DNA of 64,000 nt from a bacterium (lineage in GTDB: Bacteria > Vulcanimicrobiota > Vulcanimicrobiia > Vulcanimicrobiales > SCRA01). The stretch spans positions 24,384 through 88,383 of the forward strand of contig SCRI01000047.1 in the NCBI GenBank assembly GCA_004298675.1. Direction: 5' to 3'. Position numbers and translations under genes: made by a program. This document shows positions 24,223-31,669 of this stretch, one piece after another (positions within the stretch are counted from its first letter, which is position 1; every line of letters begins with the position of its first letter). Below the pieces are notes generated by a model. The model did no database searches and had not been told where the DNA came from. It worked only from the letters and a program-made list of their open reading frames with translations.

Positions 24223-25211
24223 GGCGCGCGACGCTCTCGCTCGACCTCGACAACCGCTGGTCCTACATGAAGACGCACGGCGACGCGGGCTGGGAGACCT
24301 TTCCGTCGTACCTGGAGACGCTCGTGCCGCGCGCCCTGGAACTGCTCGCGCGGCAGCGCGTGCGTATCACCGTCTTCGTGGTGGGGCAGGATGCCGCGCT
24401 CGACCGCAACGCGGCACCGCTGCGCGCGTTGGCGCTGGCCGGACACGAGATCGGCAACCACTCGTTCCATCACGAGCCCTGGCTCCATCTACGCCGCGAG
24501 GACGAGATCGAGCGCGAGCTGGCCAGGGCGGAGGCAGCCATCGAGCACGCTACCGGCGTGCGCCCGCAAGGGTTCCGCGGACCGGGCTTTACGCGCTCGC
24601 ATACCATCCTGCGGGTCTTGGCGCGCCGCGGCTACCGTTACGATGCCTCGACTCTAGCCACCTGGATCGGACCGTTGGCGCGGGCCTACTACTTTCGCTC
24701 GATGCGCCTGCAGGAGCGCGAGAAGCGGGAACGCGCGGCCCTCTTCGGCCGTTGGAGCGACGGACTTCAGCCCAATCGCTGCCACTTCGAGCGCACCGCG
24801 GCGGGGGACATCGCCGTAGTGCCCGTGACGGTGATGCCGCTCCTGCGCGTGCCGATTCACGTCAGCTACCTGCTGTATCTCGCGGTTGTCGACCCAGCGC
24901 TGGCGCGCGCCTATTTCGACGCCGCGCTCGCGCTGTGCCGCTTGACCGGAACGGAGCCGTCGATCCTGCTCCATCCGCTGGACTTCCTGGACGCCGGCGA
25001 CGCACCGGAGCTGATGTTCTTCCCCGCGCTGCAGCTCCCACTCGCGACGAAGCTGGGGATCGTTTCCTACGTCTGCGAGCGGCTTACCGCCGCCTACCGC
25101 GTCGGACCAATCCTGGACTACGTGCGCCTGCGCGAGGCGCGCCCAGCTATGCCGGCTGCGCCACGCCCTCCGGAATACCGTTCGCCATCACGCGCAGATC
25201 CGCATCCGTGA
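24219..25211 (+). CDS. Polysaccharide deacetylase family protein
   Basis: NodB-fold hydrolase of 330 residues. It begins TLSLDLDNRWSY (first catalytic Asp and divergent Asp-Asn pair). The metal site EIGNHSFHHEPW matches the HSxxH motif, followed by GFRGPGFTRSH, RRGYRYDAS and, near the C-terminus, LLHPLDFLD. No signal peptide is present, so it probably acts on a lipid-linked or cytoplasmic intermediate, or is exported otherwise. It starts within the ATGA overlap with the oxidoreductase. Its last 65 bases overlap the 3' end of leuA on the other strand, an unusual convergent coding overlap. Confidence 0.85.
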   Translation: MRRATLSLDLDNRWSYMKTHGDAGWETFPSYLETLVPRALELLARQRVRITVFVVGQDAALDRNAAPLRALALAGHEIGNHSFHHEPWLHLRREDEIERELARAEAAIEHATGVRPQGFRGPGFTRSHTILRVLARRGYRYDASTLATWIGPLARAYYFRSMRLQEREKRERAALFGRWSDGLQPNRCHFERTAAGDIAVVPVTVMPLLRVPIHVSYLLYLAVVDPALARAYFDAALALCRLTGTEPSILLHPLDFLDAGDAPELMFFPALQLPLATKLGIVSYVCERLTAAYRVGPILDYVRLREARPAMPAAPRPPEYRSPSRADPHP

Positions 25212-26313
25212 TCTCGCGTTTGGTGTTGGCCAGCTCCAGGAACGACTGGTAGAAGCGCTCCATCTCGCTCTGTTCGAAGGCGTAGCCGAGCTGTTCCAGA
25301 CGTACGCGAATAGCGTGGCGCCCGGATTGACGCCCCAAATGCAGGCGCGCCGCCTGCCGCCCCAGCAGTTCCGCTGGGAGCACTTCGTAGGTGGCGCGAT
25401 GCTTGAGGACTCCATCCTGATGGATGCCGGACTCGTGCGCGAAGGCGTTGGCGCCCACGACGGCCTTGTGCTTCTGTACCGGCATATGCGTGGCACGCGC
25501 CACCATGCGGGAGAGCGCAGGGATGGCCGCCATGTCGAAGTCCACCTCGGCGCCGTAGACGTCCTGGCGCACCCGCATCGCGGCCAGCGTCTCCTCCAGC
25601 GCGCAGTTTCCGGCGCGTTCACCGATGCCGTTCACGGTGCACTCGATCTGGCGCGCCCCGGCGCGCACGGCCGCCAAGGTGTTGGCCACGGCCAGGCCTA
25701 GATCGTCGTGGCAGTGCACGGAGAAGATCGCGCGCTCGCTCCCCCGCACGTGCTCGCGCAGGTACGAGATCAACGCGGCGTACTCGTGCGGCTGCGTGTA
25801 GCCCACGGTATCAGGGACGTTGAGCGTGAGGGCCCCGGCATCGAGCGCCGTTTGGAAGACCTCGACCAGGAAGTCGCGCTCGCTGCGGGTGGCATCCTCG
25901 GCTGAGAACTCCACGTCCGGACAGAGCGTGTGCGCGCTGCGCACCGAGCGCTCCACGGCCGCCAAGACCTGGCGCGGAGTCATGCGCAGCTTGTGCTCCA
26001 TGTGGATGGGGCTGGTGGCGATGAAGACGTGGATGCGCGGCGCGCGGGCGTGGCGCAGTGACTCCCACGCGGCATGAATGTCGCCGTCGACGGCGCGGGC
26101 GAGGGAGGCGACCGTGCTGTGCGTCACGCTCGCGGCGATCTCCGCCACCGACGCCGCGACGGCGGGCGAGGCCGCCGAGAAGCCGGCCTCGATCACGTCG
26201 GTGCCGGCGCGATCGAGCGCGCGGGCGATGCGCAGCCGGTCGGCGGCGCGCATGGCAGCGCCCGGAGATTGCTCCCCGTCGCGCAACGTGGTATCGAAGA
26301 CGCGGACCTTCAT
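25147..26313 (-). CDS. leuA: 2-isopropylmalate synthase lacking the regulatory domain
   Basis: Condenses acetyl-CoA with 2-oxoisovalerate in the first committed step of leucine synthesis. The 388-residue protein has the catalytic TIM barrel with [13 protein letters not shown] (about 6-18), metal-binding [18 protein letters not shown] and HESGIHQDG, then a short subdomain. The C-terminal LeuA allosteric domain (about 130 residues in typical 510-residue enzymes) is absent, so leucine feedback inhibition is not expected. A homocitrate or citramalate synthase role is possible, but the ilv/leu context and a leucine-rich leader favour LeuA. Start ATG 26313 follows an ACGAGG site just after the attenuator. 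Confidence 0.88.
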
Positions 26314-26326
26314 CGTTTGTACCTCG

Positions 26327-26366
26327 TGAAAAAAGCGAAACGCGCCCCCGCCGAAGCGGGGGCGCG
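26327..26366 (-). terminator. leuA attenuator terminator
   Basis: Reading the minus strand, an 11-base-pair G/C stem (26366-26356 with 26351-26341) closed by a TTCG tetraloop is followed by TTTCGCTTTTTT (26340-26329). It lies 14 bases before the leuA start and 30 bases after the leader peptide stop. The loop and adjacent stem (CCGCTTCG on the minus strand, 26359-26352) are perfectly complementary over 8 bases to CGAAGCGG at 26407-26400 in the last leader codons, giving a competing antiterminator. Confidence 0.85.
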
Positions 26367-26395
26367 TCTCATACTGTCTTATGGGTGCGCAAACC

Positions 26396-26458
26396 TCAGC
26401 CGCTTCGTCGTATGACGCCGTCCGTAAGGAGAAGTCGGCCAAGGAGCTGCATGCGCAT
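26396..26458 (-). CDS. leuL: Leucine leader peptide of the leuA attenuator
   Basis: A 20-codon ORF with sequence MRMQLLGRLLLTDGVIRRSG contains five leucine codons in a seven-codon stretch (CTC CTT GGC CGA CTT CTC CTT). It is followed by a terminator hairpin and then leuA. The second ATG at 26452 lies 7 bases after the putative -10 box and may be the true leaderless start, giving 18 residues. The last four codons form the 5' arm of the antiterminator, so ribosome stalling at leucine codons would expose that arm and allow read-through. Confidence 0.8.
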   Translation of the reverse strand: MRMQLLGRLLLTDGVIRRSG

Positions 26459-26488
26459 CTTATGGTGGAGTGTAGCACGCAACGTCAA
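26459..26488 (-). promoter_or_regulatory. leuL-leuA promoter
   Basis: On the minus strand TTGACG (26488-26483) and CATAAG (26464-26459) are separated by 18 bases. The predicted transcription start would fall at or next to the ATG at 26452, giving a leaderless leader-peptide mRNA. It lies back to back with the ilvB promoter at 26531-26560. Confidence 0.55.
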
Positions 26489-26530
26489 GCACGGCGACGC
26501 CGCGCTCGAAATATCCCTCGCGCGAGGAGG

Positions 26531-26560
26531 TTGACATGTCGAACGCATGGGCAGTACCAT
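26531..26560 (+). promoter_or_regulatory. ilvL-ilvB promoter
   Basis: A perfect -35 TTGACA (26531-26536) and TACCAT (26555-26560) are separated by 18 bases. Transcription would begin about 3-7 bases before the leader peptide ATG at 26571. An AGGAGG sequence at 26525-26530 precedes an ATG at 26536 that opens a frame running into ilvB, but that ATG overlaps the -35 box and the frame crosses the terminator hairpin, so I do not use it as a start. Confidence 0.65.
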
Positions 26561-26570
26561 GGCTTCAACA

Positions 26571-26636
26571 ATGTCGTCGCAAATTCTCGTCGTTAGCCTT
26601 ATTCTTGTCCGCCTCGAAGGGGGTCGGTGGGGATAG
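26571..26636 (+). CDS. ilvL: Branched-chain amino acid leader peptide of the ilvB operon
   Basis: A 21-residue ORF starting MSSQILVVSLILVRL contains two Ile, four Leu and three Val codons within codons 5-15, all three end products of the pathway. The final codons (26622-26632, GGT CGG TGG GG) can form 11 pairs, including two G-U, with CCTCGCCGACC at 26673-26683 in the terminator's left arm and loop, giving an antiterminator. A CCGCC/GGTGG pairing (26609-26613 with 26626-26630) provides the alternative protector hairpin. This is the standard design of ribosome-mediated attenuation. Confidence 0.85.
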   Translation: MSSQILVVSLILVRLEGGRWG

Positions 26637-26666
26637 GCACTGTCTGACGACAGAATACGAAAGTAG

Positions 26667-26706
26667 AAGCCGCCTCGCCGACCAAGCGAGGCGGCTTTCT
26701 TTTTTC
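26667..26706 (+). terminator. ilvB attenuator terminator
   Basis: A perfect 12-base-pair stem (26667-26678 with 26686-26697), a 7-base loop CGACCAA and a downstream TCTTTTTT run form a Rho-independent terminator only 12 bases before the ilvB start. It lies 30 bases after the leader peptide stop, the same distance as in the leuA leader, and its left arm also pairs with the leader's last codons. Confidence 0.9.
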
Positions 26707-26718
26707 ACTGGAGGTATC

Positions 26719-28413
26719 GTGGAGATCACCGGTTCGCGTCTCTTGCTTGCGGTACTCGAGGCCCATGGGATCGACTCCGTCTTCGGCTATCCCGGGGGCG
26801 CCATCATGCCGTTTTACGATGCGCTACTGCACGGCGGTCTCACGCACTATCTCGTCCGCCACGAGCAGGGGGCGGCCTTTGCCGCCGGCGCCTACGCCCG
26901 GACGACGGGGCGTTTGGGCGTCTGCGTCTCGACCAGCGGTCCCGGTGCCACCAACCTCGTGACCGGGTTGCTGGACGCGATGATGGACAGTGCACCGGTC
27001 TTGGCTATTACGGGCCAAGTGCGCTCGGCGCTCATGGGCAGCGATGGGTTTCAAGAGGCCGATGTGGTCGGCATCACCAGCCCTTGTACGAAGTTCAACG
27101 CGCTGGTGACGCGCGCGGCCGACATCCCCGCCACCGTGGAGAAGGCGATCCGTATCGCCACGTCTGGGCGCCCGGGTCCGGTGCTCGTCGACGTCACCAC
27201 CGACGCGCTCAAGGAGCGGCTGACCTGGGATGCTCCGTTGACGCGCTCCGCCGAGCGTAGCGGCTACGGCGAGGGCGGGCGTGCGCCGGAGCTCAACATC
27301 GCGGCCACGGAGGCGATCGCGGCGCTGGCGCGCGCCGAGCGCCCCGTCATCATCGTGGGCGGCGGCACCCGCATCGCGGGCGTCGTGCAGGAGTTCCGGC
27401 GCCTGGCGGCACTGATCGGCGCCCCGGTCGTGGCGACGCTCAACGGTCTGGGAACGGCCGATCCGAGTGACGCGCGCTATCTCGGCATGTTCGGTATGCA
27501 TGGCCACAAAGGTGCCAACCTCGCCGTCACGCGTGCCGACTGCATGCTGGCGCTGGGCGTGCGCTTCGACGACCGCGTCACCGGCGACGTCTCGAAGTTC
27601 GGACGCAATGCCACGGTCATTCACTGCGACATCGATCCCTCCGAGATCGGTAAGATCATCCACGTGGACGTCCCCGTGGTGGGCGATCTGCGCGAGACGA
27701 TCGCGGTGCTGACGGAGGTGGCTCAGGTTGCGACGATGCCGTCCTACGAGCCGTGGTTGGCCGAGGTAGCAGCGCTGAAGCGGCCGCTGCCGCCGGCGCG
27801 CCACGAGAACGGCGAACTCTCGGCCACCGACGTACTGGACGCGCTGGCGGCACTGATGGAGCCCGGCACCGTCGTCACGACCGACGTCGGGCAGCACCAG
27901 ATGTGGGCGGCACAGCGCGTGCGCTTGGAGAGCAGCCGTGACTTCCTGACCTCCGCCGGTCTGGGGGCGATGGGCTTCGGCCTGCCCGCGGCGGTGGGGG
28001 CGCAGGTGGCCCGCCCGGGCGATACCGTGGTCGCCATTCTCGGCGACGGCGGTTTCCAGATGACGATGCACGAGCTGGCGACGATTCGCCGCTACGAGTT
28101 GCCCATCAAGATCGTGGTGATGGACAACCGTCATCTCGGCATGGTGCGGCAGTGGCAAGAGCTCTTCTACGAGCGCCGCATCGTGGCCACCGATCTCTAC
28201 GACAATCCGGAGTTCTGTACGCTGGCGTCGGCGTACGGTATCGCCTCCACGCGCGTTGACCGCCCGGAGGACCTCCATCGCGCCTTGCGCGAGATGCTCG
28301 ACTCGAGCGGCGCCTTTCTACTGCACTGCGCCTGCTTTCCCACGGAGAACTGCTTTCCGATGGTACCGGCGGGGCGCCACATCGACGAGATGCTGGAGAG
28401 AACATCGGCATGA
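26719..28413 (+). CDS. ilvB: Acetolactate synthase large (catalytic) subunit
   Basis: Thiamine-diphosphate enzyme joining pyruvate with pyruvate or 2-oxobutyrate in valine/leucine/isoleucine synthesis. The 564-residue protein has GYPGGAIMPFYDAL (about 22-35), the catalytic Glu in RHEQGAAFAAGAYAR, FQEADVVGIT, GMHGHKGAN and the TPP-binding GDGGFQMTMHELATIRRYELPIKIVVMDN region. The GTG at 26719 has a GGAGG site directly after the attenuator. The operon continues as ilvN, ilvC with 4-base overlaps. No ilvD is in the window. Confidence 0.94.
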   Translation: MEITGSRLLLAVLEAHGIDSVFGYPGGAIMPFYDALLHGGLTHYLVRHEQGAAFAAGAYARTTGRLGVCVSTSGPGATNLVTGLLDAMMDSAPVLAITGQVRSALMGSDGFQEADVVGITSPCTKFNALVTRAADIPATVEKAIRIATSGRPGPVLVDVTTDALKERLTWDAPLTRSAERSGYGEGGRAPELNIAATEAIAALARAERPVIIVGGGTRIAGVVQEFRRLAALIGAPVVATLNGLGTADPSDARYLGMFGMHGHKGANLAVTRADCMLALGVRFDDRVTGDVSKFGRNATVIHCDIDPSEIGKIIHVDVPVVGDLRETIAVLTEVAQVATMPSYEPWLAEVAALKRPLPPARHENGELSATDVLDALAALMEPGTVVTTDVGQHQMWAAQRVRLESSRDFLTSAGLGAMGFGLPAAVGAQVARPGDTVVAILGDGGFQMTMHELATIRRYELPIKIVVMDNRHLGMVRQWQELFYERRIVATDLYDNPEFCTLASAYGIASTRVDRPEDLHRALREMLDSSGAFLLHCACFPTENCFPMVPAGRHIDEMLERTSA

Positions 28414-28628
28414 GCGAACGACTCGAACTCCCATTGCGCGACCAACGCGCGCTCGCCAAGGTATTGGCGGCGCTGACGCGCACGGGCTGCACCGCCACCA
28501 GCGTGCGCGCTAGTTTCGGCGATAGTTACTCCGCCGTCATCACGATCGAGGGGCCCGCGCTCAACCTGCGGCGCCTGTCAGCACTAATCACGCGTCTTCT
28601 TTCAACCCACCAAGAGGAGTACCGATGA
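28410..28628 (+). CDS. ilvN: Short acetolactate synthase small subunit (ACT-like)
   Basis: Regulatory partner of IlvB, inferred from position and sequence. At 72 residues it is far shorter than standard IlvN/IlvH (about 160-170) and resembles the IlvM size class. Residues 10-66 can be read as a single ACT-like fold ([32 protein letters not shown] then a helix). The characteristic glycine-rich valine-binding loop (RRGFNI type) is replaced by TRTGCTA. It overlaps ilvB upstream and ilvC downstream by ATGA at both ends, so production is tightly coupled. Confidence 0.75.
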
Positions 28629-29695
28629 ACGTCCAACACGCCCAAACCACCGACCCGGGGAGCCTGCGCGGAAAACGCATCGGCATCATTGGATACGGCA
28701 GTCAAGGCCGCGCGCACGCGCTCAACCTCCGGGACTCCGGTTGCGACGTCGTCGTCGGACTTCGCACCGGAGGCGCCTCCTACGTCAAAGCGATCGCCGA
28801 CGGCTGGAGCCCCGTCACGCCGGCCGACGCCGCCACGCGCGACGTCGTCATGATGCTCACCCCCGACGAAGAGACACCGCGTATTTACCGCGAGCAGATC
28901 GGCCCCAACTTGCGCCCCGGCGCCGCGTTGGGCTTTGCGCACGGGTTCTCCATCCATTTCAACTACGTGCAGGCACCGCCGGCCGTGAGCGTTTTCATGG
29001 TGGCGCCGAAGGCCCCCGGACGCTTGGTGCGCAGCGAGTACGAAGCCGGGCGCGGCGTCCCGTGCTTGATCGCGGTGGCGCAAGACCCGCACGGTGATGC
29101 GCTCGAGATCGCGCGCAACTGGGCGATCGGCATCGGTGCCGGCCGGGCCGCGATCATCCAGACCAACTTCCGCGAGGAGACGGAGACCGATCTCTTTGGC
29201 GAGCAAGCCGTGCTCTGCGGCGGACTCTCGGCGTTGGTCACCGCCGGCTTCGAGACGCTCGTGAGTGCCGGCTACGCGCCGGAGATGGCTTACTTCGAGT
29301 GCTGCCATGAGTTGAAGCTCATCGTCGATCTGGTCTACGAGCGCGGCATCACGGGCATGCGCGACGGTATCTCGAATACGGCCAAGTATGGTGACTACAC
29401 GCGCGGCAGCCGTATCGTCACCGAGCAGACGCGCCAGGCCATGCGCCAGATCCTGGGTGAGATCACCTCCGGTGCCTTCGCCAAGGAGTGGATGGCCGAG
29501 TGTGAGGCTGGCAAGCCGCGCTTCCAGCGCTTCCGCGAGGAGGGCCACCGCCATCAGATCGAGGGTGTGGGTGCGGAGTTGCGCAGCTTCATGCCCTGGA
29601 TGGCGGCTCCCGAGCCGCCGCGTTCCGAGACGCCGGCGCCCGCGCTCGATGCGAGCCATGCGATGCCGGAAGTCGGCGCTTTTATGAACGAGTAG
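28625..29695 (+). CDS. ilvC: Ketol-acid reductoisomerase
   Basis: Mg- and NADPH-dependent enzyme that isomerises and reduces acetolactate. The 356-residue protein has a Rossmann motif [20 protein letters not shown] (about 20-39), [34 protein letters not shown] (metal-binding Asp/Glu) and [18 protein letters not shown], which define class I KARI. It carries a non-conserved tail of about 25 residues ending [12 protein letters not shown]. After the stop, 82 bases precede leuC and contain an A-rich stretch but no clear terminator. Confidence 0.94.
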
Positions 29696-29777: not shown

Positions 29778-31145
29778 GTGCGAACGCTTTTCGAGAAGAT
29801 CTGGGATAGCCACGTGGTCGAGGAGCTGCCGGGCGGTAACGCACTGGTGTTCATCGACCGCGTCGTTGCCCACGAGATCACCACCCCTACCGGGGCACTC
29901 GAGATCGAGCAGAATTTCGGTGACCGCATCTACGATCCGGCACGTATCGTGGCCCTCAACGATCACGTGTCGCCCGCCAAGGACACCGAGACGGCGATCC
30001 AGGCACAGGTGCTGCGCACGTGGGCGAAACGTCACGGCATCAAGCTCTACGACATCGGCGATAACGGCATCTGCCACGTGGTGGTGCCCGAGCGCGGCTT
30101 GGTCGAGCCCGGAATGACGCTCTGCTGCGGTGACAGCCACACCTGCACGCTGGGCGCGTTCGGAGCCTTTGGGCTAGGCATCGGCAGCACCGCCCAAGGC
30201 GGGGCGATGCTCGCCGGCTGCTTGATCTTGCAGCGGCCGAAAGTCTACGGCATCGAGCTGCGCGGCAGTCTCGGCCACGGTGCGACGGCGAAGGATCTCG
30301 CGCTGACGGTCGTCGCGCGTTTGGGCTTCCGCGGAGCGACCGGTTACGTCATCGAGTATTTCGGCGCGGGGGTGGCCTCGCTCTCGATGGAGGAGCGCAT
30401 GACGCTCTGCAACATGGCCATCGAAGCCGGTGCCACTTCCGGTCTCTGCCCGGTCGACGAGACGACGTTCTCGTATCTGGCGCAGACCGAATACCAGCGC
30501 GGCGTGCCCGATTGGGAGAGCCGCGTCGAGCGTTGGCGGGCCCTGCGCGCCGACGACGACGCCGAGTACGACGCCGTCGCGCGTATCGATCTCTCGGAGC
30601 TGCGTCCGCTGGTCTCGTGGGGGACCAACCCCGGCGAGTGTTCACCGATCGACGGCGCCGTGCCGGCCGATGCACCCCAGGCTTCGCTCGAGTACATGGG
30701 GCTCACGCCTGGACAGACGCTGGACGGGCTCGCCATCGATCAAGCCTTCATCGGCTCCTGTACCAACGCGCGCCTCTCCGATCTGCGTGCCGCCGCTGCG
30801 GTGCTGCGCGGCCGCCACGTGACCGTGCCCACGATCGTCACCCCAGGCTCGCAGGCGGTGCGCCGGGCCGCCGAACGTGAGGGTCTCCACGATATCTTTC
30901 AAGACGCCGGGGCGCTCTGGACGCACTCCTCGTGCGGGCCGTGCCTGGGAATGTCGATGGGTGTCCTGGCTCCAAAGATGCGCTGCGTCTCGTCGTCGAA
31001 CCGCAATTTCCCGGGGCGCATGGGAGCGGGCGGACGCGTGCACTTGGCCTCGCCGACGGTAGTCGCCGCGAGCGCCGTAGCCGGATGCATCACCGCACCC
31101 GATCGACTCGCCGCACGGCATGCCGTGGCCGGTGGTGCCGCATGA
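29778..31145 (+). CDS. leuC: 3-isopropylmalate dehydratase large subunit
   Basis: Iron-sulfur isomerase of leucine synthesis, working as a heterodimer with LeuD. The 455-residue protein begins TLFEKIWDSHVV, has GDSHTCTLGAFGAFGLGIG (about 119-137) and the cluster cysteines in FIGSCTNARLSDL (about 332) and HSSCGPCLGM (about 393-396), ending NRNFPGRMG. The GTG start has a GGAG site. It overlaps leuD by 4 bases. leuB is not in the window. Confidence 0.94.
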   Translation: MRTLFEKIWDSHVVEELPGGNALVFIDRVVAHEITTPTGALEIEQNFGDRIYDPARIVALNDHVSPAKDTETAIQAQVLRTWAKRHGIKLYDIGDNGICHVVVPERGLVEPGMTLCCGDSHTCTLGAFGAFGLGIGSTAQGGAMLAGCLILQRPKVYGIELRGSLGHGATAKDLALTVVARLGFRGATGYVIEYFGAGVASLSMEERMTLCNMAIEAGATSGLCPVDETTFSYLAQTEYQRGVPDWESRVERWRALRADDDAEYDAVARIDLSELRPLVSWGTNPGECSPIDGAVPADAPQASLEYMGLTPGQTLDGLAIDQAFIGSCTNARLSDLRAAAAVLRGRHVTVPTIVTPGSQAVRRAAEREGLHDIFQDAGALWTHSSCGPCLGMSMGVLAPKMRCVSSSNRNFPGRMGAGGRVHLASPTVVAASAVAGCITAPDRLAARHAVAGGAA

Positions 31146-31669
31146 ACTTCGAAGGCGAGATTCTCCTCGTCGACCGCGCCAACGTCGATACCGACCAGAT
31201 CATCCCTGCGCGCTACCTCACCGGCATCACGAAGAGCGGCTACGGACAACACCTCTTCACGGGCATGCCGGGCGGTACGGAGTTGCTCCAAAGCAAGCCC
31301 GCCGCCACCATTCTGGTCGCGCGCGAGAATTTCGGCTGCGGAAGCTCGCGCGAGCACGCCGCGTGGGCGATCGCCGATCGCGGCTTCCGGGCGGTGATCG
31401 CGGAGAGCTTCGCGCGCATCTTCCTCGAGAACGCCTACACCAACGGGGTGGTGCCTATCGTGCTGCCCAAGGCCGAGGTGGAGGCGTTGGCGGCGTGCGG
31501 ACGCGCGCGCATCGACGTCGCCGGGCAGTTCGTCGAGGCGTTGGGGCGGCGCATCCCCTTCGATCTCGATCCGCTGCGTAAGTCCTTCGTGCTCGAAGGC
31601 GGCTTCATGGAGTTCTTAGCCAAGAAAGTCGAGCTAGTGCGCGCGTGGGAGCGCGCCGCGGCCTCCTAA
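31142..31669 (+). CDS. leuD: 3-isopropylmalate dehydratase small subunit
   Basis: The 175-residue swivelling domain subunit has the canonical [13 protein letters not shown] (about 15-27), [18 protein letters not shown] (about 60-77) and [18 protein letters not shown] chose the ATG at 31142 because it overlaps the leuC stop and gives the family N-terminus. It is the last gene of the ilv/leu operon. It overlaps the 3' end of the convergent diguanylate cyclase gene by 4 bases. Confidence 0.94.

Follow-up and report, generated by a model that had tools for sequence, protein, structure and literature searches.

Two divergent leader-peptide attenuators predicted upstream of leuA and ilvB in a genus of Eremiobacterota

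In a 64,000-nucleotide stretch of bacterial DNA (the window; source genome 3.03 Mb, 87 contigs), the divergently transcribed genes leuA (minus strand) and ilvB (plus strand) have leaders that sequence comparison identifies, with a probability of about 0.93, as two independent classical ribosome-mediated transcription attenuators served by predicted divergent promoters about 100 bp apart. Leader ORFs, their codon content, terminators, a conserved and covarying pairing of segments 2 and 3, and conserved promoter-like boxes are seen directly. We infer that transcription terminates and antiterminates in the cell, that ribosomes stall, and that a 1:2 state exists at both genes. The mechanism is a known one and is well supported here by comparison with relatives. 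The features are as follows (peptides are given up to the stop codon).

25147..26313, minus: leuA, 2-isopropylmalate synthase, 388 aa (NCBIfam 569.7 bits, cut-off 532; Pfam)
26327..26370, minus: leuA terminator (segments 3:4) with U-rich tail (fold; conserved in species G001–G003)
26352..26359, minus: leuA segment 3 (CCGCTTCG), partner of segment 2 (fold)
26396..26458, minus: leuA leader ORF, MRMQLLGRLLLTDGVIRRSG (read directly; orthologues in the genus)
26400..26407, minus: leuA segment 2, antiterminator strand (CGAAGCGG), in the final leader codons (fold)
26431..26444, minus: leuA segment 1, within the Leu control codons (predicted fold)
26469..26488, minus: leuA promoter candidate TTGACGTTGCGTGCTACACT (extended -10 TGCTACACT, TTGAC box 8 nt upstream)
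26531..26560, plus: ilvB promoter candidate, TTGACA-18-TACCAT (consensus-like boxes; same layout in relatives)
26571..26636, plus: ilvB leader ORF, MSSQILVVSLILVRLEGGRWG (conserved in G001–G003)
26598..26615, plus: ilvB segment 1 (predicted fold)
26622..26632, plus: ilvB segment 2, antiterminator strand (GGTCGGTGGGG) (fold)
26668..26705, plus: ilvB terminator (segments 3:4) with U tract (sequence, fold)
26673..26683, plus: ilvB segment 3 (CCTCGCCGACC), terminator left arm and loop (fold)
26719..28413, plus: ilvB (ilvG-like), acetohydroxyacid synthase (AHAS) large subunit, 564 aa (NCBIfam TIGR00118, 656 bits, above cut-off)
28410..28628, plus: 72-aa ORF flanked by ilvB and ilvC, where an AHAS small subunit would be expected (position)
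28625..29695, plus: ilvC, ketol-acid reductoisomerase (Pfam, NCBIfam)
29778..31145, plus: leuC, 3-isopropylmalate dehydratase large subunit (Pfam, NCBIfam)
31142..31669, plus: leuD, 3-isopropylmalate dehydratase small subunit (Pfam, NCBIfam)

The leuA leader runs from ATG 26458 to its stop at 26396 and contains CTC CTT GGC CGA CTT CTC CTT, five Leu in seven codons; the ilvB leader runs from ATG 26571 (alternatives 26559 and 26547) to a stop at 26636, with Ile, Leu, or Val at nine of eleven codons. Both counts agree with an earlier note on this DNA, which also described a terminator hairpin between each leader stop and its gene. At leuA the stop lies ~25 nt from a GC-rich 15-bp stem (26370–26356 with 26351–26337) that carries a TTCG loop, is followed by CTTTTTT, and ends ~20 nt before the gene (ATG 26313). 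At ilvB the corresponding distance is ~30 nt, and the terminator (26668–26696) is followed by TTCTTTTTT and likewise lies ~20 nt ahead of the gene (GTG at 26719). The interval to which the note assigned the pair, 26396–26719, does hold the features described, except that the leuA terminator falls outside it.

Folding gave three mutually exclusive states (1:2, 2:3, and 3:4) for both attenuators. The antiterminator pairings proposed earlier—8 bp at leuA (26407–26400 with 26359–26352) and 11 bp at ilvB (26622–26632 with 26673–26683)—were reproduced, and in each case strand 2 overlaps the leader end, its partner lies in the terminator's left arm and loop, and its pairing excludes the terminator. 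Segment 1 sits in the control codons of both, as in the classical model. Each leader can also fold on itself, segment 1 masking the antiterminator strand, which the earlier note did not mention: the predicted 1:2 pairings, 26444–26431 with 26406–26394 at leuA (13 bp) and 26598–26615 with 26620–26637 at ilvB, could mask segment 2, at duplex energies not above chance. Most relatives' folds contain a 1:2 pairing, but its duplex energy is above shuffles in only 4 of 36 cases; because it does not beat shuffled controls, we treat 1:2 as a predicted state. Two small hairpins, CTGTC TGAC GACAG and TAC GAAA GTA, lie between the ilvB leader stop and terminator (26640–26665, plus strand); each of the four genus species has them, and in the 2:3 state they fall inside the antiterminator loop.

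The mechanism proposed for both genes is as follows. A ribosome on the leader would pass the Leu codons (leuA) or the Ile/Leu/Val codons (ilvB). With ample charged tRNA it would reach the stop codon and cover segment 2, so that the 3:4 terminator would fold and RNA polymerase would halt upstream of the gene. With charged tRNA scarce, it would stall over segment 1 and leave segment 2 free to take segment 3 as the 2:3 antiterminator, allowing transcription of leuA or of ilvB–(small subunit)–ilvC–leuC–leuD, the latter presumably co-transcribed. An untranslated leader would adopt the 1:2 pairing and retain the terminator. Folding at equilibrium mostly favors the terminator over 2:3; antitermination would therefore depend on kinetics, as it does in known attenuators.

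The 72-aa ORF in the ilvB operon is probably the AHAS small subunit: it has no Pfam match of its own, and its counterpart in family f2 is weakly ACT-like (ACT_5, E = 0.0004, below the cut-off). LeuA comprises HMGL-like and HCS_D2 domains, and Pfam found no C-terminal regulatory domain of the kind usual in feedback-inhibited isopropylmalate synthases. Judging from this domain content, leucine feedback on the enzyme may be absent, in which case attenuation may bear a larger share of control.

Hairpins and short ORFs of this kind could in principle be ordinary terminators of neighboring transcription and chance reading frames, since GC-rich genomes yield both freely. Across 100 dinucleotide shuffles of the window, ORFs like the leuA leader (5/7 Leu) arose 0.26 times per 64 kb and ORFs like the ilvB leader (9/11 Ile/Leu/Val) 0.01 times. 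The ilvB leader lies far beyond chance expectation; the leuA leader alone is not rare by chance, and its conservation is what makes it convincing. Each hairpin, moreover, is located between its gene and that gene's predicted promoter, its U tract reading in the sense direction. The leaders, their codons, and the pairing show conservation and covariation, and leader codons fit the pathway at ilv, leu, aro, and phe. We regard the chance explanation as largely refuted by this conservation and give it next to no credence.

Both leaders and the divergent layout occur in all four species examined in the genus. The leuA leaders of the other three are MHLQLLSRLPLMDDVLRRSG, MHLQLLGRLLLTDGVLRRSG, and MHVQILSQLLLTNDALRRSG; the ilvB leaders of the genus take the forms MSSQILVVSLILVRLE(G/W/R)GRWG and MSQHLLVVISLLVRSERGRWG. 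In G001 an assembly break falls inside the leuA terminator, with the expected pieces on both flanks, and a C-to-T change in ilvB segment 3 preserves its pair as G-U. The paired arrangement singled out by the earlier note is real. No back-to-back layout turned up outside the genus: in the sister family leuA and ilvB are separate or co-directional. The ribosome-stalling interpretation offered earlier also gains support, since leader codons and alternative pairings, whose lack of conservation was to count against it, are conserved in relatives; transcripts starting downstream of the leader ORFs were the other adverse outcome named, and predicted promoters lie upstream of both leaders.

Beyond the genus, the ilvB leader is the more constant of the two. 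Twenty-five genomes of the order yielded AHAS genes, and 24 of these have an Ile/Leu/Val leader ahead of ilvB or, in ilvC–ilvB operons, ahead of ilvC; the exception, G090, offers only 377 nt of upstream sequence. Vulcanimicrobium alpinus has the leader MLSRLVVLVSVLLAVLIDGRRDVFA before ilvCB, with a 9-bp antiterminator (GCCGGCGAG/CTCGCCGGC). Leaders of leuA are patchier: clear in G044 and G026, and poor, doubtful, or absent in G007, G052, G023, and G047. In G044 the 2:3 pairing of leuA is weak, and its leuA and ilvB leaders end alike, in NRLGLTTA. Of 61 genomes near the window, 38 lacked an AHAS match (E 1e-150) and 50 a leuA match (1e-60); branched-chain synthesis in the order may accordingly be patchy or rely on other enzymes.

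The 2:3 pairing was compared in homologous register across ten distinct sister-family rows, which were chosen and related, with core and register selected rather than blind: 94.4% of cells were paired and four of nine pairs had changed on both sides. The covariation score was 0.405 against 0.202 for shuffled alignments, none of 500 shuffles reached the observed value, and sliding-register controls scored far lower, destroying the signal. Sister-family cores include GGATCGG/CCGATCC, GGTTCGG/CCGAACC, GAATCGG/CCGGTTC, GGATCGG/CCGGTCC, and CTTTCGG/CCGAAGG. Segment 2 also paired better with its own segment 3 than with swapped partners, at -18.5 versus -13.3 kcal/mol in the genus and -18.6 versus -14.1 kcal/mol in the sister family; in the Vulcanimicrobium group, antiterminator cores are too alike for this comparison to discriminate. 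Duplex-energy shuffle tests are weak in GC-rich RNA, and choosing the 2:3 cores for their complementarity biases the resulting fractions; homologous-register covariation is the fairer test. We consider it strong, though not blind, evidence for the alternative pairing.

This pairing also bears on whether leader translation acts otherwise than through a 2:3/3:4 switch, via Rho-dependent termination, translational coupling, or nascent-peptide arrest. Such leaders can mislead: as far as the cited account goes, changing the candidate control codons of Streptomyces coelicolor ilvB had no effect (PMC1262725). Here, however, the intrinsic terminator is complete, U tract included, and is accompanied by a covarying antiterminator, and the leader peptides vary, keeping only their amino-acid class, which counts against peptide-specific arrest; we judge these routes highly improbable. 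Only slightly less improbable is that the peptides are small proteins functioning in trans, besides or instead of attenuation. They would be translated if the attenuation model is right, their C-termini are conserved in the genus (RRSG and GRWG before the stop), and a leader peptide with a trans function is known in peTrpL of Sinorhizobium (PMC7298713). Yet the parts outside the C-terminus vary, and RNA pairing accounts for the conserved C-terminal codons, which fall on segment 2. Attenuation by alternative pairing thus remains our reading of both leaders.

Codon usage in the leaders departs from that of genes in the window. CTT makes up ~2% of Leu codons in seven window genes versus 40 of 94 in leaders, and ATT 12% in the same genes versus 24 of 33 in leaders, while CTG and GTG almost vanish; these figures are descriptive, as leaders from related species are not independent. 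Control codons are almost exclusively NNY (CTT/CTC, ATT, GTC/GTT), and NNY codons are read by the GNN-anticodon isoacceptor, which would then be the sensed species. On theoretical grounds, how sensitive an attenuator is depends on codon choice of this kind (PMC1183508).

At most leaders a TTGAC-17/18-TAnnnN promoter candidate ends 7–10 nt upstream of the ATG (10 nt before ATG 26571 for the ilvB -10), which implies little or no 5' UTR and suggests, on promoter prediction, near-leaderless translation. The leuA, aroF, and pheA leaders of the genus differ from this spacing, with TTGAC only 7–8 nt from an extended -10. Their motif, TTGACS-N(7-8)-TA[CT]NCT with TG before the -10 (window 26469–26488, minus strand; loci L232–L240), is spaced unlike a usual -35/-10 pair. 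In the four genus genomes the exact pattern matches only at leuA, aroF, and pheA leaders; a looser pattern adds two sites in the window's own genome, both without a leader.

A nucleotide search with the intergenic region gave one other genome match, upstream of a DAHP synthase gene:

G000, contig C74, 25767..25926 (locus L002, 1501–1660), minus: aromatic attenuator before DAHP synthase, leader MFTSPRSYFAYWYFTDAHRRSG (...SYFAYWYF...)

Its leader end and terminator follow the leuA design, its 3' half is paralogous to the leuA attenuator, and leuA segment 3 covaries relative to CCGCTCC in this aroF paralogue. This aromatic leader is conserved within the genus; DAHP synthases of the sister family and of V. 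alpinus have different ones (WWW, YSYWW, WFYRYFY). In V. alpinus, attenuator-type leaders stand before ilvCB and before a pheA–aroF fusion. Two of the four genus species, G003 and G001, have Phe-containing leaders ahead of pheA (L195, L197; MIVQRERFARFFFGRRPRTPVG and MTGVLGLTLRFSFRRIRRVTVG); none is present in G000 and G002, where pheA closely follows an upstream gene. A leader scan of the hisD, trpE, and homoserine dehydrogenase regions of the genus found no leader.

The shared design before DAHP synthase and pheA places leuA and ilvB within an attenuation regulon. Paralogous aro and leu leaders, the pheA leaders, and the common leader end in G044 suggest that attenuators were copied between operons and then re-coded. 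It is possible, if rather doubtful, that in Eremiobacterota a promoter box, a near-leaderless leader ORF, an antiterminator, and a terminator together make up a copyable cassette, which was duplicated among leuA, aroF, and pheA with its codons changed to suit each amino acid, the genus copies carrying their own promoter motif, possibly the site of an additional shared regulator.

Leader-peptide attenuators are known from Proteobacteria, Actinobacteria, and some Firmicutes (PMC2965389, PMC1262725, PMC5794164); the earlier note rightly named the first two but drew the range too narrowly by omitting Firmicutes (PMC2965389, PMC5794164). Attenuation is also suspected at ilvB in further phyla, as far as the cited survey goes (PMC10272879). 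A literature search, covering little of the subscription literature, returned no earlier report of leader-peptide attenuation in Eremiobacterota. The present analysis would thus add a largely uncultured phylum to this range, in which attenuation would form a regulon spanning the leu, ilv, aro, and phe pathways. V. alpinus WC8-2, the first cultured Eremiobacterota (PMC9758169), has the same devices, which makes the prediction directly testable. The back-to-back pair would form a compact system, with two amino-acid sensors in one intergenic region.

The enterobacterial leuLABCD and ilvGMEDA/ilvBN attenuators combine a leader peptide rich in pathway codons, exclusive 1:2, 2:3, and 3:4 pairings, and a terminator before the first gene. 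The window pair shares pathway-codon leaders, terminators, and the exclusive 2:3 and 3:4 pairings, and folding predicts a 1:2 pairing for it. It differs in its solitary leuA, in an ilv operon that takes in leuCD, in the placement of two attenuators on one divergent promoter region with predicted near-leaderless leaders, and in having no match to an Rfam leader family: at gathering score, neither a riboswitch, a T-box, nor another listed leader family matched, and relaxed thresholds gave only chance-like sub-threshold matches. The ilvB-OMG and Leptospira ilvB motifs, RNAs upstream of ilvB in several phyla, likewise contain uORFs rich in branched-chain codons; their functions are unconfirmed in the cited account (PMC10272879), and the window did not match them at Rfam gathering scores. 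The ilvBNC attenuator of Corynebacterium glutamicum (ilvB-II motif) has a branched-chain leader peptide with terminator, antiterminator, and anti-antiterminator hairpins (PMC11857589, PMC10272879), and the 5' end of its ilvL transcript lies one nucleotide from the leader start codon (PMC11857589). As far as these sources go, it resembles the window pair in leader, terminator/antiterminator design, and the little or no 5' UTR predicted here, but belongs to another phylum, sequence, and operon, and has no described divergent partner. Staphylococcus aureus also controls branched-chain synthesis by a terminator/antiterminator with a Leu-rich leader, at ilv-leu; unlike the window pair, that attenuator serves a single operon, has a ribosome-binding site, and works with CodY (PMC5794164).
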